From Hartmannibacter diazotrophicus (GTDB lineage Bacteria; Pseudomonadota; Alphaproteobacteria; Rhizobiales; Pleomorphomonadaceae): DNA of 64,000 nucleotides. Location of the stretch: the NCBI RefSeq assembly GCF_900231165.1, contig NZ_LT960614.1, forward strand, positions 1,300,550-1,364,549, given 5' to 3'. Shown here one piece after another: positions 14,416 through 50,621 of the stretch. The notes under the pieces are model-generated. The model was given only the letters and a program-made list of their open reading frames with translations, made no database searches and was not told the origin of the DNA. A program made the position numbers and the translations under genes. How positions within the stretch are numbered: position 1 is the stretch's first letter; each line of letters starts with the position of its first letter.

Positions 14416-14492
14416 CGGAGTGTAGCGCAGCCTGGTAGCGCACCTCGTTCGGGACGAGGGGGTCGAGTGTTCGAATCACTCCACTCCGACCA
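14416..14492 (+). tRNA. tRNA-Pro (anticodon CGG)
   Basis: A 77-nt cloverleaf. The acceptor stem CGGAGTG/CACTCCG is perfect. The D arm contains AGCGCAGCCTGGTAGCGC, the anticodon stem CCTCG/CGAGG encloses the loop TTCGGGA (anticodon CGG, reads CCG), and the T loop is TTCGAAT. The ACCA end is encoded. A T-run at 14494-14499 acts as terminator. Confidence 0.96.
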
Positions 14493-15850: not shown

Positions 15851-17233
15851 ATGGACATAAAATCGTCCCATCTTTATCACGAACTGAGCCTCGCTGTGAT
15901 TTGGCCGGAGATCGATTTGAAGATTGATACGAGACTTTTAAGGCTGCTCGATGCGTCCATCTCGGTGGGCATTCGTGGAGCTGCCGCAATCAGTGCATTT
16001 TTGCTACAAATTTTGATTTCCCGTACAACTGGCGCTGCCGGAATTGGGCAATTTCAAATATTACTGACTTCAGCAACTGTAATTTCAACATTTTCTACAT
16101 TTGGTATGGGTTTAAGCATTACAAGAATTGTAGCCCAAAAAAGACTATCGAAAAGTGCTATATTTAAAACAATTGGAAATGCAACCATAGCATCATTGTT
16201 TATTCTATCAATTATTGTAACAATAATTACTGTAAATATAGATTATCTTAATAATATTATAGACGATCTAAATACCGCAACAATATTATCAATAGTCATT
16301 GCGTCGGCGTTTCTTAGTCAGACGGAAATATTTGGAGGGGCCGCTCGAGGTGCGGGGTTGCACTCAGTAGCGCAAGCGACATCCTACTTAACTACGCCGT
16401 TAATCGCTGGCATACTAATATTCAGTTCAAGTTACTCGAACGCTGACGTTGATCCGTGGAAATCATACTTAATTGGATGTTGCCTATCTTCTATAGCCAT
16501 AGCGTTTATATCTGTATATTGGATCGGTATTCGGAAGGGAGCTACTTCAGGAAGTAGCGACAAATCCATAAAGTCAATGGATATACTGAAAAACAGTTCG
16601 GGATTTTTCTTTGCTGGATTTGCGCAGCTGGCAGGAATTTGGATCGTTACATATACGTTGAGTGCAGTGGCGACGCTCGGAGATGTAGGTATATTTAAGG
16701 CGGCAGAGAGATTTGCTTTTATCATTGCTTCGATAGGGCAATCTGTATCGGTTACTGTGGCAGCAAAGTATGCGCTTGCCCATGTAGAGGGAAATCATAG
16801 GAAACTAGTAACACTAGCGCAGGGGGCAACCTTAACAACTTTCTTAATGACATTTCCATTGATACTTGTTTTGTTCGTATTTTCAGACTTTTTTATGGGA
16901 TTGTTCGGTGATGAATTTTCTCAAAAGGGAGAAGTTTTAAGAATATTGATTTCGGGTCAACTGTTTGCATCTCTTTCTGGCGGCGTATTCCAGCTCCTAG
17001 GGATGACGGGGAATGCATATATAGTCGGAAGAACCAGTGTGATATCAACTATCGTCACGTCAATTTTGGTATTTGTTCTGATTCCTTTTGGTGTAACTGG
17101 CGCAGCGATTGCTCTATCTGTTGGCAACGCAATTCAAATGCTTATGCTGAATTGGGCAGCAAGGAGATTCTTGAATGTAAGATGCGATATTTTTCATGTC
17201 ATAGGTGCCCGGTTTAAAGAGAGGATCAAATGA
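15851..17233 (+). CDS. Polysaccharide flippase (Wzx/MATE-like)
   Basis: An integral-membrane protein of ~460 aa with about 12-14 hydrophobic segments, resembling lipid-linked oligosaccharide flippases of the polysaccharide synthase family. Visible features include the N-terminal RTTGAAGIGQFQ turn, the central AAERFAFIIASIGQS helix pair, and the late LGMTGNAYIVGRTS loop. Base composition is far richer in A+T than flanking genes, and AT-ending codons (ATA, AAT, TTA) are common, suggesting recent transfer. The start is uncertain: ATG 15851 was chosen, with TTG 15815 upstream as an alternative. It overlaps the next gene by 4 bp. Confidence 0.85.
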   Translation: MDIKSSHLYHELSLAVIWPEIDLKIDTRLLRLLDASISVGIRGAAAISAFLLQILISRTTGAAGIGQFQILLTSATVISTFSTFGMGLSITRIVAQKRLSKSAIFKTIGNATIASLFILSIIVTIITVNIDYLNNIIDDLNTATILSIVIASAFLSQTEIFGGAARGAGLHSVAQATSYLTTPLIAGILIFSSSYSNADVDPWKSYLIGCCLSSIAIAFISVYWIGIRKGATSGSSDKSIKSMDILKNSSGFFFAGFAQLAGIWIVTYTLSAVATLGDVGIFKAAERFAFIIASIGQSVSVTVAAKYALAHVEGNHRKLVTLAQGATLTTFLMTFPLILVLFVFSDFFMGLFGDEFSQKGEVLRILISGQLFASLSGGVFQLLGMTGNAYIVGRTSVISTIVTSILVFVLIPFGVTGAAIALSVGNAIQMLMLNWAARRFLNVRCDIFHVIGARFKERIK

Positions 17234-18450
17234 AATCAGAGGACTTCTGCCCAAGAGTTGCTATTATTAATCAGCATGGAAACAATTATGGTGATGATAT
17301 TGCTTGCTATGCGGCGGTAGAGCAGGTGAGAAATATCTTCAGAGATGCAGAAATTACTCTGATTTTCAATAATCCAAACGAGGTAATTCTAGGTGCGCAG
17401 CCGATAGTTATTGAAAATGTGCAACAAATTGATGATATTCTGTTCAAAAAATCAGATATTATAGCGCTATTGCTAGATGTTTTTGGCCTAAGAATGTTCG
17501 GAGGTCTATTAAAGTCCAGCGGAATGAAGCGTTTTGAGAGAGAAATAGAAAAAAATGATGTTGTTATTGTTAGTCCAGGTGGTCAGAATATTGGCAAATA
17601 TAAGGACTGGTGGTACCTGATGCAGGTATTGTCATCTATAAATGGTGGAAAAAGCCCAATTTTCTTCCTAAATACAATAGCTAGATCCGGAAACGCTCTA
17701 TTCGATTGGCTGGCGCGGTTTTGTCTGAAAAATTCTGAAGTGTTTGTTCGTCAGAAAGACAGCTATGACTATGTAAAAAGCGTTGGTGCATCGGTGTCTC
17801 TCGGCGTTGATACGGCTTTTTCTTTTTTGCCTCGTCATGGCGAGTTAGGTCCCGTGGAGAGGTTAAACGAAATTGTATTTATTCCAACTAATCTGAGCAA
17901 ATTTTTTCGAGGATTCAATGCGGAAACTGTCGAAGGAGTTGTCTCCGATATAGCCGACACCTTGTCTTCAGAGTCGGTACCGCAGGCATTTCGAATTAGA
18001 ATTGTACCTCATTTGCATTCGTCGAGTGCAGAGAGCGATTTTTTGAACCAGATCAAACTGAAAATTGAAAAAAATGGAAGAGAAGTAGTAGTCGATCATG
18101 ATGTAAGGACGTTTTTTGACTATTCCGACCGTATAGCGGCGGCCCGTGTTGTCATAAGTATGCGGTATCATGGAGTAGTTCTGTCCGGCGTGCATCGCAC
18201 TCCATTTGTTGGAGTCGCCTATGAAGAGAAAATGCAATATGCCGCTGCCTACCTTGGGCAGTCGGATTTCTCGATACCTGTTTCTAAATGGTCTGGAGAT
18301 GCATTTAAGTCTGCTGTGGAGAAGGTTCTAGAGAAGGAACTAAATATTCGAGACGAAATTGGTGGTAAACTTCCTTTGCTCCGAAGGCTTTCTAGGTTGC
18401 CAGTGGATTTCTTGGCGATTAAATACGCCGTCGAAGATGTAGGAAAGTGA
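17230..18450 (+). CDS. Polysaccharide pyruvyl transferase family protein
   Basis: Predicted to add pyruvate ketals (from PEP) to a glycan or its lipid-linked precursor. The 406-aa protein shows the N-terminal NQHGNNYGDD motif, a central VSPGGQNIGKYKDWW loop, and the late SMRYHGVVLSGVHRTPFVGV segment diagnostic of the family. It starts within the stop of the flippase gene (ATGA overlap), so the two are translationally coupled. Codon use is AT-rich like the flippase. The frame starting on its own stop (GTGA) is truncated; see the following entry. Confidence 0.87.
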   Translation: MKSEDFCPRVAIINQHGNNYGDDIACYAAVEQVRNIFRDAEITLIFNNPNEVILGAQPIVIENVQQIDDILFKKSDIIALLLDVFGLRMFGGLLKSSGMKRFEREIEKNDVVIVSPGGQNIGKYKDWWYLMQVLSSINGGKSPIFFLNTIARSGNALFDWLARFCLKNSEVFVRQKDSYDYVKSVGASVSLGVDTAFSFLPRHGELGPVERLNEIVFIPTNLSKFFRGFNAETVEGVVSDIADTLSSESVPQAFRIRIVPHLHSSSAESDFLNQIKLKIEKNGREVVVDHDVRTFFDYSDRIAAARVVISMRYHGVVLSGVHRTPFVGVAYEEKMQYAAAYLGQSDFSIPVSKWSGDAFKSAVEKVLEKELNIRDEIGGKLPLLRRLSRLPVDFLAIKYAVEDVGK

Positions 18451-18540
18451 TATATATTGATGAAATAATACGCGAGGCGATTTGTCTTCCGAATGGAAAC
18501 ATCGTGTTTTCATTGAATGTGAGAAGCTCGAAGGATCGAC
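18447..18540 (+). pseudogene. Truncated start of a third coupled gene (remnant)
   Basis: A GTG at 18447 overlaps the stop of the pyruvyltransferase gene (GTGA) and has AGGAAA just upstream. It opens a frame of about 31 AT-rich, protein-like codons beginning MIYIDEIIREAI. At about 18540 the composition switches to high G+C and the frame continues only as an out-of-frame shadow of the GT2 gene. The parsimonious reading is the 5' remnant of a gene lost at the right edge of the transferred cassette. The family is not recognisable. Confidence 0.45.
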
Positions 18541-18543
18541 AAT

Positions 18544-19518
18544 TTGAGCAAAAAAATTTCGGTTGTCATTGTCACATACAATTCCAAGTCCTTCATCGAC
18601 GAGTGCCTGAAGCCGATCGTTGGATCGATCGGTCCGGATCTGGAAGTGATCGTCTGGGACAACGAAAGTCCCGACGGCAGCCTCGGCTATGTCCGCGAGA
18701 ACTATCCCTCGGTTCTGGCGTTCGGCGAAAATGGCAACCGTGGTTTTGCCGCCGGAAACAATGCGGCCTTCAGGCATTGCACCGGGGACTATGTTCTTCT
18801 GCTCAACCCCGACGCCTTCCTGGAGAATGCCGGCCAGATCGCCGAAATGGCCGCCGTTCTGGACCGGCGGGCGGACGTTTGCGCCGTCTCGCCGATGCTG
18901 CTCAATGCCGACGGCAGCCATCAGGTCGGCGACTGCGGCTGGCGGCATTCGATTGCGAACACCATCGGCCACTTCCTTTTCCTGCATCACCTCTTCCCCG
19001 ACATCAGGGGAATCTATCTGACGAATGCCAAGCTCTTCTCCCGCCCGAGCGTCGAGGTCGACTGGCTTTGCGGCGCCTGCATGATGGTCCGTAAGTCGAC
19101 GATCGACACGGTCGGAGGTCTCGACGAAGAGATTTTCATGTATGGAGAGGATGTCGAATGGGGCGAGCGCATGCGCGCGGCGGGGGCGAAGCTGCTTTAC
19201 CTGCCCGGCATCAGGGTGACCCATCTTCAAGGGGCGACGCAGAAGGGCGAGAAGGGCAGCTATTTCATTTCGACAAAATGGCTGGACGCCTTGTCCGACC
19301 AGATCGGGCGAACCCAGTCCGGCTGGCAGTTCACGCTCTTCAAGGGCATTGCCTTCGCGGGAATGGCGCTGAGATTTCTGATCTATTCGACGCTCGATCT
19401 CGTCCGCGGACGGAAGATTTCAGCCAGGGCGAAAGCCATGAAGGCCTATGCCTGCCATGCCCTCAAGCTGCGGCGCGGGCAAGCGGTCGAATTTCCGGGA
19501 GTTCGCAACCGTCAATAG
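18544..19518 (+). CDS. Family 2 glycosyltransferase (rhamnosyltransferase-like)
   Basis: GT-A fold transferase of 324 aa. It opens with KKISVVIVTYNSKSF, then VWDNESPDGS, NRGFAAGNN, and the metal-binding LLLNPDAFL motif. The acceptor-side motifs are CGACMMVRK, GGLDEEIFMYGEDVEW and HLQGAT, as in rhamnosyl- and related transferases of polysaccharide loci. The start codon is TTG, with AAGGA about 10 nt upstream. Composition returns to the genomic norm here, unlike the two genes before it. Confidence 0.9.
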   Translation: MSKKISVVIVTYNSKSFIDECLKPIVGSIGPDLEVIVWDNESPDGSLGYVRENYPSVLAFGENGNRGFAAGNNAAFRHCTGDYVLLLNPDAFLENAGQIAEMAAVLDRRADVCAVSPMLLNADGSHQVGDCGWRHSIANTIGHFLFLHHLFPDIRGIYLTNAKLFSRPSVEVDWLCGACMMVRKSTIDTVGGLDEEIFMYGEDVEWGERMRAAGAKLLYLPGIRVTHLQGATQKGEKGSYFISTKWLDALSDQIGRTQSGWQFTLFKGIAFAGMALRFLIYSTLDLVRGRKISARAKAMKAYACHALKLRRGQAVEFPGVRNRQ

Positions 19519-19608
19519 TCTTGCGACGGCAGCAAGTAGAAGACAGCAGGTTCTAGGTGCAGTCGCGATTCCGCGGGAATCCGTTGCTCATGCAAAGGAG
19601 AACACATC

Positions 19609-20691
19609 ATGGAACTCACTCGACGGGATGTTGTTAGGTCCTGGCTGCTCGGGTCAGGTTGCCTCTTTGCCATGCCCAGCTTGGCCGAAGACAATACAGT
19701 GGGGAAGCCTGTTGTCTTTGCCGAAAAGATCCATCCGAAGAGCGACATTACCGACCTGCTCGATGATGCGCTTGAGGAGTGTTCGAAAAAACGTCTTGGT
19801 GCGGTGGTGCTTCCCGCCGGCGAATATTACGCCAAGTCTATTAAGCTTCGTCACAACACGAAGTTGATTGGAATGGGGGCTAGTTCAACGCGACTTATCG
19901 CAAGAAGTCGCAGCGAGGCATCTGCCTTTTTGACCATCGACGAAGGTCCAGTTGTCCGCTCTGGTGCCAAAGGATTGTCGCTGATTGGCGGTACCAACGC
20001 AAAACCATTCAATCCCGGTCAATGGGCGTTCCATGCCGAGGCTCGGCCAGAGCCGGGTGCAAAGTTGGCTCATGGCGGTTTATGGCAGTCGCTGTTCGAA
20101 GACATTGAAATTCGGGGATTTTCTCAGGGGGTACATTTAGATGGCGGTGGTAGCAGCACCCTTCTACCCAACCAGTTTCTGAGTTTCCGCGAGTTCTTCG
20201 TCTTCCTAACCCCAGAGCCGACTGGTCCGAGCATGAAAGTAACCGGACAGTCGGCACAGACTATCTTCCAACAGTGCCAGTTCGATTGCCAAGGCAGTAG
20301 GTCACCATATCCAACGGTTGAAATTGGTCCCAGTGAGAGATCTGGACGTGTTGCACCTGCAGTCCTGCGCTTCGAAGTGTGCACCTTTCAGAACGCCCGT
20401 TACGGTGCTCTCTTGAAGAACACGCAGAACGTCTCATTTGAAACGTGCTGGTTCGAGCAGCTCGACGGCGGCGTCGAGGTTGGCGAGGGCTGTTCCGCCG
20501 TGACGATCGAGGGATGCCGTTTTGCCAATGCGGGAAACATCGATCCGGCCGTTTCATTCGCGCCGGGAACGCAGGGTGCGGTGCGCTCCAATGTCTTTGC
20601 CGGCAAGGAAACGCGCGTCTCGCGGCGGTTTGGCGCCAAGGCGGATGTCGTGGACGAAAACAACTCGTTCTTCTGGGGTGCGGGCAAGTGA
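19609..20691 (+). CDS. Exported right-handed beta-helix protein (pectate-lyase-like fold)
   Basis: A 360-aa protein with a Tat-like N-terminal signal: twin arginines in LTRRDVV, then a hydrophobic stretch ending in AMPSLA. The body begins with DITDLLDDAL and VVLPAGEYYA, typical of the beta-helix start in pectate-lyase superfamily proteins. Repeating short strands (N-x-S-F-E-T-C-x-F, A-V-T-I-E-G-C-R-F) support a parallel helix. It likely binds, cleaves or modifies the glycan made by this locus. AAAGGAG lies close to the ATG. Composition is intermediate between the AT-rich cassette and the genome. It overlaps the polymerase gene by 4 bp. Confidence 0.72.
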   Translation: MELTRRDVVRSWLLGSGCLFAMPSLAEDNTVGKPVVFAEKIHPKSDITDLLDDALEECSKKRLGAVVLPAGEYYAKSIKLRHNTKLIGMGASSTRLIARSRSEASAFLTIDEGPVVRSGAKGLSLIGGTNAKPFNPGQWAFHAEARPEPGAKLAHGGLWQSLFEDIEIRGFSQGVHLDGGGSSTLLPNQFLSFREFFVFLTPEPTGPSMKVTGQSAQTIFQQCQFDCQGSRSPYPTVEIGPSERSGRVAPAVLRFEVCTFQNARYGALLKNTQNVSFETCWFEQLDGGVEVGEGCSAVTIEGCRFANAGNIDPAVSFAPGTQGAVRSNVFAGKETRVSRRFGAKADVVDENNSFFWGAGK

Positions 20692-39085: not shown

Positions 39086-39541
39086 TCAGCCGAAGAGGCG
39101 GGCGAAAAGGCCCTTCTTCGGCTCGGCCACGGGAACCTTGGCCGCCGCGTCCTTCATGACCGTCGCAACGGTGACGTAGGTCTCCGTCCACGCATCCTTG
39201 AGTTCCGGCGTCCAGGCGTCGCCAAGACCTTTTTCGAGCGTGTAGAGCAGCGTCGATCCGACCGTGTCGTAGTGCTCCGGCTTGACGCCGTAGGCGACAT
39301 GCTTGGCGCCGAGTTCCTGCACCACCGGCAGGATGGTCTGGACCTGATGCAGGTTCTGGACGGCAACGCCCAGCGTCTTCATCAGCTTGCCCTTCTGGTC
39401 CGACATGTCGGCCGGAAACATCGAGCGAACCTCGGGGGCCACTTCGAAGAGGCGGTTGTAGAAGATGTCGGCGGCGGCGTCGGCGATCGGAGCGACTTTC
39501 TGGAAGCTCTCCTGGACGAGTTTGACTTGTTCGGGGGTCAT
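39086..39541 (-). CDS. Single-domain bacterial globin
   Basis: A 151-aa heme protein of the Vitreoscilla hemoglobin/flavohemoglobin-globin type. Features: ESFQKVAPIADAAADIFYNRLF (A-B helices, Tyr28 near B10), Phe42 at CD1 in MFPADM, and the proximal His81 in GAKHVAYGVKPEHY followed by a conserved Tyr-Val-Glu-type helix. There is no reductase domain. It may bind O2 or NO. GAGGAT precedes the ATG. It sits next to a c-heme redox operon on the same strand. Confidence 0.9.
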   Translation of the reverse strand: MTPEQVKLVQESFQKVAPIADAAADIFYNRLFEVAPEVRSMFPADMSDQKGKLMKTLGVAVQNLHQVQTILPVVQELGAKHVAYGVKPEHYDTVGSTLLYTLEKGLGDAWTPELKDAWTETYVTVATVMKDAAAKVPVAEPKKGLFARLFG

Positions 39542-39646: not shown

Positions 39647-40225
39647 TCAACTGTCGACGGGAATGCGAATCACGACACCGCCCATCACGTCATCGAGCTT
39701 GAAGTCGGTCTTCGGCGAATCCTTGTGAGAATTGTGGCAGGAGACGCAGCCCTTGGCGACGGCGACATCGGCATACACGGCGGTGAAATACTTTTGCCCG
39801 CCGAGTTCTTCTTCGCCGTAGTAGGCCTCTCCCGGATTGTCGTTGACGAATTCGAGGCCTGCCTTCTCGACATCGGTGCGCGGGCCGTTCTGCTTGTTGA
39901 TCGGCCAGAGCGATAGCAGTGAGTAGGAGAAGGCGTCGGTCTTGTCGGCGACCAGTTCCGCGCCGAAGCGGAACATCTGCGCCGGCAGCGGCGCGGCGAC
40001 GTCATCCTCGAAGAACTCGGACGCCTTGATGACCTTGTGGTCGATCGTCAGGCGCCCGATGATCATCTTGGTGTAGACCTCGCGGTCGGAGGCCATCACC
40101 GCATGCAGCATGTCGGTGACGAGCTTCGGCTCGATGCCGTCCGCGAACACGGTGTTCGAAAGTCCGACCAGCATGCCGGCACCGACGGTGGTGCCGACGA
40201 GTGTCTTGAATACGGTCCTCTTCAT
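39647..40225 (-). CDS. Periplasmic c-heme protein, Tll0287-like (DUF3365)
   Basis: A 192-aa exported protein with a signal peptide ending ...NTVFA and one heme-c motif, CVSCH (160-164), followed by NSH. Flanking residues (a YFTAVYADVAVAKGC strand before, GGVVIRIPV after) follow the Tll0287-like heme domain pattern of DUF3365. Heme is probably attached in the periplasm. AGGAGGGG precedes the ATG. It is the last gene of an operon with the multiheme cytochrome and the fused flavoprotein, 65 nt downstream of the cytochrome gene. Confidence 0.82.
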   Translation of the reverse strand: MKRTVFKTLVGTTVGAGMLVGLSNTVFADGIEPKLVTDMLHAVMASDREVYTKMIIGRLTIDHKVIKASEFFEDDVAAPLPAQMFRFGAELVADKTDAFSYSLLSLWPINKQNGPRTDVEKAGLEFVNDNPGEAYYGEEELGGQKYFTAVYADVAVAKGCVSCHNSHKDSPKTDFKLDDVMGGVVIRIPVDS

Positions 40226-40290
40226 CACTATCCCCTCCTGATTGCACCTAGTGTGCGATAGTGCACGGGGAAGACCCTGGGGTTTGGCGA

Positions 40291-41853
40291 TCACTTGGTC
40301 TTCTCCGTGCGGCTGACTGCCCAATCGATGCTTTCGATGTGCAGCGTTGGATGCCCGTTGAAATTGCTGGCAACGAGCCCCGGGTCGGCAAGCGCGTCGA
40401 GCGAGTACTGCAGGCTGTGACAGCTGAGGCAGACCGGCCGGATCATCTTCTCGTTCGGGCGCAGGGTTGTGTTCTGATTGTGCTCGGTGGTGACGCCGCG
40501 CCGGCTCTCGATCTTCGGCATGTGGCAGTCGGCGCAGGAAACCCCGCTTCCCGGCTCGCCCGTTCCGACAAGCTCCGCCTGCCAGAGCCGGTAGTGCGGC
40601 GAGGTGAAATAGGCACGGGTGTGGTCGTCGTCGTGGCAGGAGGCGCAGGCCTCGACGGCCGCCACCTTCAGGTCCACCTCGTGCGGCTTGTGACAGGCGT
40701 TGCAGGTGCCGGTCATGCGGTCCTGGGCGTCCGGCTTCATCGGGATTAGCGCCTCCGAAACCGGCATGGCGCCGAGCGGTTCATCCTTGAAGACTTTGGC
40801 CGCAACCTCGGTGAGGACGCCGAGATCCGGTGCGTCCTCGCGGGGGCCGGGCAGCTTCGGGTGGAAGCGCATGCCATGCTTGCCCTCGCGGAAGCTGGCG
40901 GCCTCGGGCTTGTGACAGCTCTGGCAGACGTCGAGGCCGGGGCTTTCGATCCAGTTCGCCGCGATCACAGCAACGTCGCCGGCCTCCGTGCCCTCCAGCT
41001 TCGGCGCATGGCAGCCGGCGCAGTTGACGCCGCCGCGCGCGTGCCCGGAGCCCGCCCAGGCGGCAACGGCCTCTTGGGTGAGCAAGGCCGGCGGGGCCAC
41101 GGCATCGCCGGCAAGAAGGACCTTGGCGAGCGCCTCCTTGGCGGCCTCCGCCGGGTCGTCGCCATCGTCGGACTTGGCCTTTTCCAGATAGGCGGTCAGT
41201 GCCGCGAGCGGATCGTCGCTCTTCATGGCCGTCAACACGGCCGGAACGGCCCGGCTCTGCGCGGCAAACGGCATCACCGGATGGTCTGCGAAGTCCGGCA
41301 TGCCGGCATGCTTGACGAGGAATTCCTCGTAGAGCGCCGTGTTGTCGTGGAAGTTGTGGCACCCGGCGCTGGCGCATGAGGTGAACTCGAGGCCCTTGTG
41401 GGTCGGCCGCTCCTTTTCGATGTCGTCGTGGCAGGCGAGGCAGTAGTCCATCGGCTGGGTGACGGCGATCGCGCGGGTCACCTCCGGCACGTGCTCGGCG
41501 TGGCAGGTGGTGCAGAAGAGGGCGTCGAGCTTCTCGCGCCGGTCGGCGTTGCGCGGGTCGCGGAATTTCTTCACCGGGTGGGAATCGTTGGCAAGCTTCA
41601 GCTCCGCCTCGTGGCAGGTGAGGCAGGCCTTGTTCATGTCCTTCTCGACCTTCGCCTTGTCGGCGAAGAAGCCGGAGGTGTGGCAGGCACCGCATTCCAT
41701 CTCGATCTGGTGATGCGCGCCGGTCGTCTTGCCGATCAGCAGGAACTGCCGTCCGCCGCCGACGAAGACGATGCCGGCGACCGCCGTGCCGGCAACGAGT
41801 GTTGCCAGCAGCCAGATGGTCCAGAGGAGCTTGTTGGCGGGAAGACGCAACAC
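40291..41853 (-). CDS. Membrane-anchored multiheme cytochrome c (11 heme motifs)
   Basis: A 520-aa protein with one N-terminal membrane helix (~10-32) and no cleavage site, then a periplasmic body. Ten canonical CXXCH motifs start at residues 54, 77, 114, 138, 278, 310, 384, 403, 440 and 475; an unusual CX4CH (CASAGCH) is at 160. A heme-free, Ala/Lys-rich segment (~185-270) separates the first five from the last six, suggesting two modules. It resembles NapC-like and octaheme cytochromes only in general layout; I cannot name the substrate. It starts 6 nt after the flavoprotein gene ends. Confidence 0.85.
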   Translation of the reverse strand: MLRLPANKLLWTIWLLATLVAGTAVAGIVFVGGGRQFLLIGKTTGAHHQIEMECGACHTSGFFADKAKVEKDMNKACLTCHEAELKLANDSHPVKKFRDPRNADRREKLDALFCTTCHAEHVPEVTRAIAVTQPMDYCLACHDDIEKERPTHKGLEFTSCASAGCHNFHDNTALYEEFLVKHAGMPDFADHPVMPFAAQSRAVPAVLTAMKSDDPLAALTAYLEKAKSDDGDDPAEAAKEALAKVLLAGDAVAPPALLTQEAVAAWAGSGHARGGVNCAGCHAPKLEGTEAGDVAVIAANWIESPGLDVCQSCHKPEAASFREGKHGMRFHPKLPGPREDAPDLGVLTEVAAKVFKDEPLGAMPVSEALIPMKPDAQDRMTGTCNACHKPHEVDLKVAAVEACASCHDDDHTRAYFTSPHYRLWQAELVGTGEPGSGVSCADCHMPKIESRRGVTTEHNQNTTLRPNEKMIRPVCLSCHSLQYSLDALADPGLVASNFNGHPTLHIESIDWAVSRTEKTK

Positions 41854-41859
41854 CGGACC

Positions 41860-43899
41860 TCAGTAGCTGTAGACGGCGAGAATGTGGGCGAGGATCAGGA
41901 CGGGCAGGGGCCAGAGCGCGAGGATGTGGATCCAGGTCGGTAGCTTCTGCGGTGCGCTCTTGGACCCGACGAGATCGCGTTCCCTGAGTTCGTGCTCGCC
42001 GCCAGTGACGAGACCGGCGAGAGCGCCGAAGAGAAGCGCCGTCAGGAAACTCGCCATCAGCCAGAAATTGAGGTTCGAGCCGAGCCGGAAGCCCGTATGC
42101 CAGACGAGCACGCCGGCGGCGGAAAGACCGATGGCAAGATGGACGAGCCGCCAGCCGTTGTAGCCGCCAAGTTTGGAGAAGAGCCGGATGCGCTTGCGCA
42201 GGCCGAGGATCGCGGCGGCGGCCGTCAGGCCAAGCAGGATATAGCCCGACCATTGCTTGAAGATCGTGTCGAACCAGAGCTTGGTCAGCAGTTCGCCGAT
42301 GACGAAATGCTCCGGCAGGGCGATGCGCGGCAAGGTCCAGGAGGCGAGCGCCATGATGCCGGCCGCCGAGGAAAGGCCGACCAGCCATTTCCACCACCGG
42401 ACCGGTTCCGGTCTGGCGTCGCCCGCTCCCAAAAGATCCTGCACGTGCATGGTGCAGGTGCCGCAGACCGAATTGGCGCTGGTGGCGCTGCGCACCTCGT
42501 CGAGGGTCGTCGCTCCCATGGTGACCGCATCGAGGATCGCGCCCTTGGTCACCCCGGTGCAGTTGCACACGATCGCCTCGCGCGGCCAGGCTCCAGGACC
42601 GTCCTCCGCCTCGCGCCAGAGCCGCCCGGTGCGCGAAAAGGAACGCAGGGTCAGGAAGCCGATCCGGGCGCGGCGGGTGACGGCCTGCTGCAACCGCGTT
42701 GCCTCCGGCCAGTCGCCGACGCCGAGCGCGGCGACGATCCGTCCACGGTCGACGAAGAGGCGGCGATAGAGACCCTGCTCTGCATCTGCGAAGACATGAC
42801 TGCCGACGCCCGGCTGCTGCGCGATCGACTCAAAGTCGCCGATGGAGAAGACGTCGACGCCGAGGATCTTGAGCTTGGTGGCAAGCACGGACCCTTCATA
42901 GGGCACGGGCTGACCCGTGATCGAGGCGGCAGCGGCGATCGCCTGGTCGAAGCCGGGGCCGACGAGCCCGTAGACCATGCCGGCATGCTCGGCGCATTCG
43001 CCGACGGCATAGATGTCCGGATCGGATGTCCGCATTTCGTCGTCGACCATGACGCCGCGATTGAAGTGAAGGCCGATCGCGGAGGGAAGCTGGGTGTTGG
43101 CACGCACGCCGGTGCACACGATCACGGTGTCGGCGGCAAGGCTGCTGTCGTCGCCAAGCGTGACGCCCTCGACGCGCGCCGTACCGTCGATCGACTTGAT
43201 CCGCTCGCCGGTTCGGACCGTGACGCCGAGTGCCTCGATGCGGGCCTTCAGGGCCGCGCCGCCAGCTTCGTCGAGCTGGCGCGGCATCAGGCGGCTTTCA
43301 TGTTCGACGACGGTGACATGGGCGCCGCGCCGGCTCATGCCCCGCGCGGCTTCAAGGCCGAGCAGCCCGCCGCCGATGACGATCACCTTCCGGGCGGACA
43401 TCGAGCGGGCGATCAGCGCCTCGGTGTCGGAAAGGTTGCGGAAGGCGTAGACGCCGGTGAGATCCTTGCCCGGAATGCCGGGAATGAAGGCGCGCGAACC
43501 GAGCGCCAGCACCAGCTTGGAATAGTCCATCGTCCGGCCGGTGGAGGTCAGGATCCGATGGTTCTCGCGGTCGACGTCGACGATCGAGACGCCGTCGTAG
43601 CGGTCCACGCGTCCGGGGCCGGGAAAGCGTTCGGGCAGGTTGACCTGGCCGAGCTGGGAATCGCCGGCCAGCAGCGGCGTCAGCTTGACCCGATTGTAGG
43701 GTTTCCAGCGCTCGGCATTGAAGATGACGACCCGCTTGCCCTTGCGCGAGAGCTCCTGCGCGATGCGCACGCCAACGGGACCGGCACCGGCCACGATCAC
43801 GGGGGCATCCGGTGCCGCGGTGATAGCACCGGCGTCGACGAACGCCGGCGGCGCCACGTCGGGCGTAATATCGATGCCAAGGGATGCGGCCATGGTCAT
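41860..43899 (-). CDS. NirB-like FAD/NAD(P) oxidoreductase fused to [2Fe-2S] and membrane cytochrome-b-like domains
   Basis: A 679-aa fusion in three parts. Residues ~33-420 are a pyridine nucleotide-disulfide oxidoreductase with VAGAGPVGVR (FAD, ~37) and VIGGGLLGLEAA (NAD(P), ~174), like the N-terminus of NirB. Residues ~443-490 are a BFD-type [2Fe-2S] domain with Cys445, Cys447, Cys479 and Cys482 (CNC...CGTC). Residues ~503-679 hold five membrane helices with His587, His601, His658 and His672 as possible heme b ligands. It would link cytosolic NAD(P)H to a membrane electron path and the multiheme cytochrome. No sulfite/nitrite reductase domain follows. It is the first gene of the operon. 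Confidence 0.82.
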   Translation of the reverse strand: MTMAASLGIDITPDVAPPAFVDAGAITAAPDAPVIVAGAGPVGVRIAQELSRKGKRVVIFNAERWKPYNRVKLTPLLAGDSQLGQVNLPERFPGPGRVDRYDGVSIVDVDRENHRILTSTGRTMDYSKLVLALGSRAFIPGIPGKDLTGVYAFRNLSDTEALIARSMSARKVIVIGGGLLGLEAARGMSRRGAHVTVVEHESRLMPRQLDEAGGAALKARIEALGVTVRTGERIKSIDGTARVEGVTLGDDSSLAADTVIVCTGVRANTQLPSAIGLHFNRGVMVDDEMRTSDPDIYAVGECAEHAGMVYGLVGPGFDQAIAAAASITGQPVPYEGSVLATKLKILGVDVFSIGDFESIAQQPGVGSHVFADAEQGLYRRLFVDRGRIVAALGVGDWPEATRLQQAVTRRARIGFLTLRSFSRTGRLWREAEDGPGAWPREAIVCNCTGVTKGAILDAVTMGATTLDEVRSATSANSVCGTCTMHVQDLLGAGDARPEPVRWWKWLVGLSSAAGIMALASWTLPRIALPEHFVIGELLTKLWFDTIFKQWSGYILLGLTAAAAILGLRKRIRLFSKLGGYNGWRLVHLAIGLSAAGVLVWHTGFRLGSNLNFWLMASFLTALLFGALAGLVTGGEHELRERDLVGSKSAPQKLPTWIHILALWPLPVLILAHILAVYSY

Positions 43900-44281
43900 G
43901 GAGCAGTCTCACCCAGGGTTCGTCAGATGGGAGGGGTCCGAAAACGCCACCGTCCGTGCGCGACCGGAAAGGGTCGGCACGACATGTGGCAGCGTTGCCT
44001 TTTTGGGACGCCCCCCGTTGGGCGAGACCTCGACGACCCGGCCTTGGGTGCGATGTCGCAGAGAAGGAAGCAAAGGTTGGGCCACCGGTTGGGTGGCTTA
44101 AAAACTATAATGATTTCAAACTGGCGTCGTTATGCCGGCTCATTCGGCTGGCAGGCCGGCGCTGCCAAAACATGCAGACGACCTGTGCATTCCGGTCAAA
44201 TTGCGAGCAATTTAGCATTTGCCGATTTTCTGGGCTTTCGAGCAATCGGTCGAACGCGTTGGCGTCGTGACCCGATGCGAA
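43900..44281. other. Leader/promoter region of the redox operon, no gene seen
   Basis: No convincing coding frame is present. The part from ~44100 to 44240 is AT-richer, with an AACTATAATG box at 44103 and a TTTGAAATCATTA stretch on the minus strand, likely containing the flavoprotein operon's promoter. A full FNR/ANR box (TTGAT-N4-ATCAA) is not present. Confidence 0.45.
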
Positions 44282-50390: not shown

Positions 50391-50612
50391 CCCCTCTGTC
50401 ATGGACCTGAGAGATTCCCGGTCACCCGTTCGGGCAGATCCGGTTTCGCCTTCGGTGAACAGCCGTGCATTGCACGCGGCTGCTGCTTTCCAGAGTTCAG
50501 TCGAGGCTGCCGCGGTCCATTTGCCTGAGAGTTTCCGGGGCGGTTGCTCCTTCGGCGCCGTTGTCGAACAGGAGCCTTGCCCTGCTGCCAACGATCTCTC
50601 CCGCGTAGCCTG
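50391..50612 (-). ncRNA. Tandem glycine riboswitch
   Basis: Two glycine aptamers in series precede gcvT. On the minus strand, aptamer 1 runs from GCGGGAGAGATC through GCCGAAGGAGCAAC to GAAACTCTCAGGCAAA. Aptamer 2 repeats the layout with CACCGAAGGCGAAAC and GAATCTCTCAGGTCC and ends near ACAGAGGGGG. The GAAGG-CAA and CTCTCAGG blocks are the conserved ligand-binding cores. It would couple gcvTHP expression to glycine. Confidence 0.95.
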
Positions 50613-50621
50613 CTAATTGGA

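Follow-up and report, generated by a model that had tools for sequence, protein, structure and literature searches.

A four-gene operon of Hartmannibacter diazotrophicus, encoding a flavoprotein fused to a membrane domain, an 11-haem cytochrome c, a stand-alone sCache_heme protein and a single-domain globin, may specify an NADH-driven transmembrane relay that handles nitric oxide (NO), or a related nitrogen oxide, during nitrate assimilation and acts on both sides of the membrane; the probability of this reading is put at about 0.47. The operon (Table 1) lies in a 64,000-nucleotide stretch of contig NZ_LT960614.1 (positions 1,300,550 to 1,364,549 of the forward strand), hereafter referred to as the window. 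It is highly probable that the four genes form one conserved transmembrane redox unit. That this unit belongs to nitrogen-oxide metabolism is likely, since two unrelated predicted controls, one by nitrate and nitrite and the other by NO, together with nitrate-assimilation neighbours in another phylum, point to nitrogen oxides. The observations used are gene content and order, co-conservation, the inventory of haem motifs and histidines, regulatory signals in subsets of the copies, and the nitrate-assimilation neighbours in Verrucomicrobia. Searches of the open-access literature found no description of the operon.

Gene order and conservation of the operon

An earlier reading of the window, made from its letters and referred to here as the sequence-only reading, had described the first three genes as a unit on one strand with gaps of 6 and 65 nt, and checking of the coordinates on the minus strand bore this out. 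The start of the sCache_heme gene was reset to the ATG at 40225, preceded by AGGAGG, which gives the 65-nt gap to the cytochrome gene; the start in the list of open reading frames (ORFs), 40324, would overlap the latter. Where that reading fell short was in leaving out of the unit the globin, 105 nt further downstream, which is the fourth member of the operon and not a mere neighbour, while its suggestion that the globin hints at NO chemistry is supported by the sequence.

The sample comprised 45 copies in 46 stretches (one genome, L031/L038, is split over two contigs) from Alphaproteobacteria, other Pseudomonadota and Verrucomicrobia; omitted were L018 (located on the same contig as L009), L016 and L017 (both with partial flavoprotein matches only) and the unfetched hits G900:C20 and G901:C61. 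A scan of named genomes returned nine loci, seven of which are true relatives sharing the gene order of the window. They come from Acuticoccus yangtzensis JL1095 (L009) and Donghicola tyrosinivorans DSM 100212 (L012), where the operon is intact, from Seohaeicola saemankumensis, and from three metagenome-assembled genomes of Hyphomicrobiaceae and one of Verrucomicrobiales. The Seohaeicola copy (L014 7863-9319) is without the flavoprotein end and the cytochrome start, through either an internal deletion or an assembly fault. A profile of the BFD and membrane domains matched, within the class, 4 of 385 genomes, within the order, 11 of 249, and within the phylum, 3 of 299, the window's genome being counted in each; in one family it matched 4 of 28 genomes. 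With an enlarged profile, the Donghicola family gave matches in 9 of 295 genomes and the Verrucomicrobial order in 11 of 288 (Donghicola and L013 counted). The membrane-domain profile had no match in eight listed other genomes of the window's own family, and the spread of the operon is therefore patchy.

The cytochrome is present in all 45 copies (truncated in L014, cut in L085), the sCache_heme gene in 44 (the contig of L085 ends first, and in L031/L038 the gene is on the separate contig), the membrane domain in 44 (not in L014) and the globin in 32; these counts depend on the membrane-domain profile, through which all copies except the window and the first seven loci were found. A reverse search of the 249 genomes with the sCache profile recovered 13 at 240 bits or above. 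Eleven of them, at 318-337 bits, are exactly the 11 with the membrane domain, and all 11 (the window and L018-L027, L018 being the contig of L009) carry the triad and the globin in the same order; the other two, which scored 241 and 250 bits, are orphan relatives, and neither such a cytochrome nor the membrane domain was found in the 6.7 and 15 kb retrieved around them. The remaining matches reached at most 76.4 bits, in frames of at least 524 aa except one of 184 aa. The sequence-only reading had named a lack of co-conservation as what would speak against the triad, and the outcome is the opposite.

Table 1. Features of the operon, its leader and its relatives (coordinates in the window unless a locus is named)
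Feature	Coordinates or loci	Strand	Basis
Fused flavoprotein, 679 aa	43899..41860	minus	Pfam/NirB profile matches, hydrophobic C-terminus
Membrane-anchored 11-haem cytochrome c, 520 aa	41853..40291	minus	motif count
Stand-alone sCache_heme protein (Tll0287/DUF3365, PF11845), 192 aa	40225..39647	minus	Pfam and CxxCH
Single-domain globin, 151 aa, fourth gene of the operon	39541..39086	minus	profile and conserved order
Sigma-54-like -24/-12 element, TGGCCCAACCTTTGCTT	44068..44084	minus	loose pattern only
ANTAR/NasT-type dual hexaloop hairpins, CGCCC[AACGGG]GGGCG ... GGC[AACGCT]GCC	43987..44024	minus	A1 and G4 in both loops
GTGGCGTTTT, pairing with the second hairpin, possible terminator alternative	43941..43950	minus	predicted fold
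Orphan sCache relatives	L089 7495-8130; L090 5929-6537		reverse profile search
GPP34 fused to di-haem-type membrane domain	L029, L030, L031, L034-L037		Pfam

Predicted path of electrons across the membrane

The flavoprotein consists of a NirB-like FAD/NAD(P)H module (residues 34-314; Pyr_redox_2, E 1e-59), a Rubredoxin_C domain (340-410; E 8.8e-15) and a BFD-type [2Fe-2S] domain (Fer2_BFD, E 1.3e-13) with C445, C447, C479 and C482, followed by the membrane domain. It resembles the N-terminal module of NirB in this arrangement, residues 35-492 aligning to residues 2-467 of NirB at 392.6 bits, but remains below the NirB (TIGR02374) cut-off of 578.35; the siroheme catalytic domain is absent and the fused membrane domain stands in its place. 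A frame of NirB size, 876 aa, is present elsewhere in the genome and shares 39% identity with flavoprotein residues 34-492.

The membrane domain has two histidine pairs, H587/H601 and H658/H672, 14 residues apart in each, and two invariant H-x13-H pairs on predicted helices, as expected of a di-haem cytochrome b, were found in 44 of 44 membrane domains. Such spacing is the pattern of two b haems stacked across the membrane in cytochrome b. The predicted model of the domain is helical (mean pLDDT 85), and in a structure comparison with VIA-align, for which HyaC and bc1 were the solved cytochromes b of reference, the cytochromes b 6g94_A (Z 8.9, 124 residues aligned, root-mean-square deviation (rmsd) 4.9), 4gd3_A (Z 8.6) and 2fyn_A (Z 7.2) appeared among a background of helical bundles. 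The domain is not assigned a fold, because talin-type bundles ranked first in this comparison and the confident Foldseek rows for the C-terminal model of the flavoprotein cover the BFD part only, none passing E 0.001. Overall, the sequence agrees with the earlier view that the first gene couples NAD(P)H to a membrane domain, and the same applies to the second and third genes, described as a membrane-anchored multihaem cytochrome and a secreted mono-haem protein.

The cytochrome contains a hydrophobic stretch at residues 13-31 and 11 haem motifs, ten CxxCH and one CxxxxCH, which include all of its 22 cysteines. All 11 motifs end in H, so the CXXCK catalytic haem motif of NrfA is absent. Over the 45 copies, exactly this set of 10+1 motifs was counted in 39, 9+1 in two and 11+0 in one; one further copy is a split frame and two are truncated or cut. 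Nine non-motif histidines are invariant among 42 complete cytochromes and three others (182, 271 and 391) are shared by 40 of them, and in the ten-motif copies L013 and L082 haem 6 is missing together with His271 and His391. In every sequence the conserved spare histidines therefore equal or outnumber the haems (12 for 11, 10 for 10, 11 for 11), which fits bis-histidine haems and a wire rather than an enzyme. The histidines were counted in total rather than haem by haem, and from its sequence the protein looks like an electron wire. Part of its C-terminal region is similar to eight-haem nitrite reductases (E 2.8e-9 to 4.1e-9 in the best PDB rows, spanning the GVxCxxCHMP segment), and the protein falls short of the curated DmsE and NrfA cut-offs; short haem-packing motifs are shared with eight-haem nitrite reductase, NrfA and DmsE-type cytochromes, but the number of motifs and the lack of CXXCK set it apart.

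The sCache_heme protein passes PF11845 (E 7.5e-19; 69 bits against a cut-off of 24.1) and has one CxxCH. Its predicted fold is closest to Tll0287 (5b82; Z 13.7, rmsd 3.3, 146 residues aligned), followed at Z 9.5 by sensor domains; searching PDB sequences with the sCache profile yielded no useful match. It is like the Tll0287/sCache_heme family (PF11845), as described in PMC12889525, in fold, CxxCH and secreted stand-alone form, but differs in being encoded in a transmembrane electron-transfer operon and in lacking the axial Cys: no cysteine beyond CxxCH was found in the mature region of 44 of 44 sCache proteins. The haem site may be open to a ligand and, having no Cys ligand, the single c haem may bind NO. 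A 2026 preprint describes slow NO release and NO-sensor behaviour for a cysteine-less sCache_heme protein fused to signalling parts, and fast NO release for a stand-alone Cys/His protein of P. putida (PMC12889525).

The periplasmic side of the operon is constant and the cytoplasmic side is exchanged among the copies. A NirB-like module is present in 37 copies (in L023 and L084 the gene is cut by the contig start, leaving just the BFD part visible, and L014 is truncated), 32 of which have the globin; of the five without it, two (L080 and L085) lie on contigs that stop short of its place. A GPP34 (Golgi phosphoprotein 3) domain (PF05719), over the Pfam cut-off in 7 of 7 cases and partial in L036, replaces the NADH module in seven copies from two other families, and no globin was found in these. 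A third cytoplasmic arrangement, also without globin, was found in L033 (1-1692), where BFD and then a ferredoxin-reductase-like FAD/NAD module are fused to the membrane domain. The globin is thus tied to the NirB-like module (32/37 against 0/7), and the membrane domain may have an alternative feed, perhaps quinol.

According to the favoured reading, NAD(P)H would reduce FAD and electrons would pass on to the BFD-type cluster, cross the inner membrane via the two b haems of the fused C-terminal domain, and enter the bis-histidine 11-haem periplasmic cytochrome and then the sCache_heme protein, about fourteen haems lying in the path. On the cytoplasmic side the flavoprotein probably re-reduces the globin, which would remove NO there. 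Induction of the unit would differ between lineages, accompanying nitrate assimilation in some (NasT, sigma-54) and responding to NO in others (NsrR), and the unit would protect against NO and related nitrogen oxides leaking from nitrate and nitrite reduction; formation of NO as a by-product has been described in nitrate-assimilating Bradyrhizobium (PMC4724949). The cofactors, the direction of flow, NO as the substrate, and its reduction as opposed to mere binding are all predicted.

In the known system nearest in logic, the Bradyrhizobium narK-bjgb-flp-nasC operon, a single-domain globin and an NAD(P)H flavoprotein likewise occur in a nitrate-assimilation setting under NasT control, which for the present operon is predicted from the leader. 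As published accounts describe it, the Bradyrhizobium operon differs in having no membrane domain, 11-haem cytochrome or sCache_heme protein, and its Flp also serves NasC; Bjgb and Flp are reported to belong to the nitrate-assimilation operon and to protect the cells from NO donors (PMC4724949). With globin and NAD(P)H flavoprotein in one unit, the present operon may be regarded, by analogy, as Bjgb-Flp-like with a new periplasmic arm. The membrane-crossing part is alike in principle to enzymes of the NADPH oxidase (NOX) type, where electrons pass from pyridine nucleotide to FAD and two b haems across the membrane; an intervening [2Fe-2S] cluster and outer c haems are added here.

Regulatory signals and genomic neighbourhoods

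In the fold predicted for the leader in the window (z -2.9), the second of the dual hairpins pairs with GTGGCG, and TTTT comes next, the arrangement expected of an ANTAR terminator. Dual hexaloops with A1 and G4 are described as the ANTAR target signature (PMC3369931), and with these hairpins and an ANTAR gene in its genome the operon of the window is a predicted target of the NasT (ANTAR) regulon. Among 23 operon genomes, 12 have ANTAR genes, and each of the seven with a clear leader is one of these. Of 25 operon leaders, 6 have the dual A1/G4 hexaloops, compared with 25 of 1646 background windows; the rule was set after viewing the first loci, and the later-fetched set is therefore the fairer test, with 4 of 8 alphaproteobacterial leaders, or 4 of 18 including Verrucomicrobia. 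A strict sigma-54 pattern occurs in 10 of 25 leaders (background, 15 of 1892 windows) and a loose one, the class of the window's element, in 12 of 25 (100 of 1892). The p-values for leader signals treat related loci as independent and are hence optimistic.

No Rfam family was found at the window's leader at the gathering score. A covariance model, R1, was built from seven leaders, including that of the window, and gave independent weaker matches at the right position in L024, L074 and L075 (20-23 bits). Lower-scoring matches in 12 genomes (23 viewed, L046-L068) were treated as chance; there was one loose sigma-54 match among them, and they lie mostly in or near open frames. The putative nas cluster of the window's own genome (L069) includes a NirB-like frame, a molybdenum enzyme nearest to formate dehydrogenase and NasC, under both cut-offs, and transporter genes (named by look); in its leader a -24/-12-like element can be made out by eye, as can two A1/G4 loops joined by a long linker.

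In all four available leaders of the ANTAR-less f206 genomes (L021, L025, L026 and L027), the sigma-54 element is followed by a perfect ATGCAT-N5-ATGCAT, which 4 of 1498 segments contain overall. This sequence agrees with the NsrR consensus given in PMC1274295; the corresponding box, gATGyAT-N5-ATrCATc, was absent from the window's leader within 2 mismatches. Rhodobacteraceae-like copies flanked by Rrf2 genes, L012, L014, L075 and L077, have a palindrome like ATTCAT-N5-ATGAAT (2, 1, 1 and 0 mismatches, respectively), which resembles the Neisseria-type NsrR variant (PMC1274295) and is less specific, 9 of 1498 background segments matching at up to one mismatch and 57 at up to two.

The absence of an adjacent catalytic partner, noted in the sequence-only reading, holds for the window but not for all copies: of the 11 Verrucomicrobial ones, 7 have nrt- or nirA-type genes as neighbours (L013, L079, L081, L082, L085, L087 and L088). 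In L079 the order is nrtA-like, one ORF, nrtB-like, the operon, nrtC, nrtD and nirA; the nrtB-like gene scores 150 bits (cut-off 209), nrtC and nrtD are over the TIGR01184 cut-off, and nirA reaches 815 bits (cut-off 523). NirA is also present in L087, and in the alphaproteobacterial L071 NMT1-like (NasS-like) and ANTAR genes adjoin the operon. No further widely recurring neighbour family was found in the first stretch set, apart from apparent reading-frame shadows of core genes. Fusion proteins of 4Fe-4S and DmsC-like parts, possible quinol-linked donors, were noted beside the NirA-type genes in L082 (12836-14377) and L087 (459-2087).

Two features of the window lie outside the operon. A glycine riboswitch (Rfam RF00504, 56.7 bits) is located at 50503-50613 on the minus strand, upstream of apparent glycine-cleavage genes (named by look). 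A low-GC stretch at 16000-20000 (0.40 and 0.53 in two 2-kb bins), near tRNA-Pro at 14416, contains ORFs that look flippase-like, pyruvyl-transferase-like and glycosyltransferase-like, and is perhaps a polysaccharide island.

Weighing of alternative functions

A number of observations weigh against the relay proposed here. In the regulatory data, the -24/-12 element of the window is weak, and R1 is strong only on its seven training leaders; on the genome's own nas leader it scores 13.3 bits, third of 69 matches in the stretch after two at other places there, and the promoter there has CTGC for TTGC. The B. diazoefficiens narK-bjgb-flp genes, which have a predicted NasT hairpin, are reported to have risen in a nasT mutant under denitrification (PMC6759348), so that NasT control is not simple and a predicted hairpin is no proof. 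The Rrf2 neighbours in L012 and L014 are closest to NsrR, and those at the GPP34-type L031 and L034 are nearest RirA and NsrR, respectively, all below cut-off. In the neighbourhoods, 4 of 11 Verrucomicrobial copies (L080, L083, L084 and L086) have no nrt- or nirA-type neighbours, and queries with the Verrucomicrobial, L071 and Rrf2 proteins gave only generic ABC matches and no nas-type neighbour in the other alphaproteobacterial stretches. A Cu-nitrite reductase over the cut-off was found in only 5 of 23 operon genomes, the window's not among them, and in 1 of 14 of the control set; a link to denitrification was dropped on this ground, as the figure indicates no general connection. In the proteins, the globin is missing in the NirB-like L032, L073 and L083 although the contigs continue, the seven GPP34 copies do without the NADH module, and L083 and L084 have His182 replaced with eleven motifs (10+1) retained. 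The absent axial Cys is weak evidence for NO binding, and another residue may occupy the site, because the C59A variant of the P. putida protein, altered in its axial Cys, is described as still releasing NO fast and not binding it tightly, and stand-alone sCache_heme domains are given redox roles in the same preprint (PMC12889525).

A more specific form of the relay, a two-sided NO-consuming machine with one NADH source, would combine the re-reduced globin, as in a split flavohaemoglobin, with a path of b and c haems to a cysteine-less sCache haem that reduces periplasmic NO; this form is considered doubtful.

Among the alternatives, plain electron export, already suggested in the sequence-only reading, or redox balancing would send surplus NADH electrons to periplasmic cytochromes, oxygen or extracellular acceptors during growth on nitrate, NO being incidental. 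The wire-like architecture would suit such a role, as would a c5-type cytochrome gene, for which tblastn gave matches in 15 of 45 copies, each of them Rhodobacteraceae-like or Verrucomicrobial (two were confirmed by Pfam), and the retention of the periplasmic part by the GPP34 copies. However, the NsrR-type boxes of some copies and the linkage of the globin indicate NO, and the lack of another widely recurring neighbour family also speaks against export, which is judged unlikely.

The 11-haem protein might itself be a periplasmic reductase of nitrite, NO or hydroxylamine to ammonia, supplying assimilation, as suggested by its C-terminal likeness to eight-haem nitrite reductases and by the adjoining NirA-type genes in Verrucomicrobia. 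This is rather improbable: there is no CXXCK, the 12 invariant or near-invariant spare histidines for 11 haems leave no obvious free site, and the PDB match spans the GVxCxxCHMP segment. Moreover, the window's genome has the 876-aa NirB-like frame, and L079 and L087 have NirA.

A role as a sensor or switch, in which the sCache_heme protein would sense periplasmic NO or the redox state and gate the flow instead of being the terminal acceptor, is quite improbable. The fold, with sensor domains following 5b82, and the NO-sensor behaviour described for the cysteine-less relative (PMC12889525) are compatible with it, but that relative is fused to signalling parts, whereas the present protein stands alone with no fused signalling output and accompanies electron-transfer genes in 44 of 45 copies. 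Least probable, and hardly to be expected, is inward flow, by which periplasmic electrons would feed an assimilatory nitrate or nitrite reductase: the Verrucomicrobial nitrate-assimilation clusters are in its favour, and DmsBC-like proteins in some of them could also fill that role, but the NirB-type FAD/NAD(P)H module would be the low-potential end of such a chain, and the window's genome has a separate NirB-like frame.

To our knowledge, the known answers of bacteria to NO are either cytoplasmic (Hmp, Bjgb-Flp) or part of denitrification. If the favoured reading is true, a haem relay from NADH to the periplasm, controlled by NO or along with nitrate assimilation, would add a third, and the two-sided machine, if true, would reduce NO by a new route, one linked to nitrate assimilation and not to denitrification. 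The relay would also provide a context for some stand-alone sCache_heme proteins, and may bear on the release of NO and N2O by nitrate-using bacteria.

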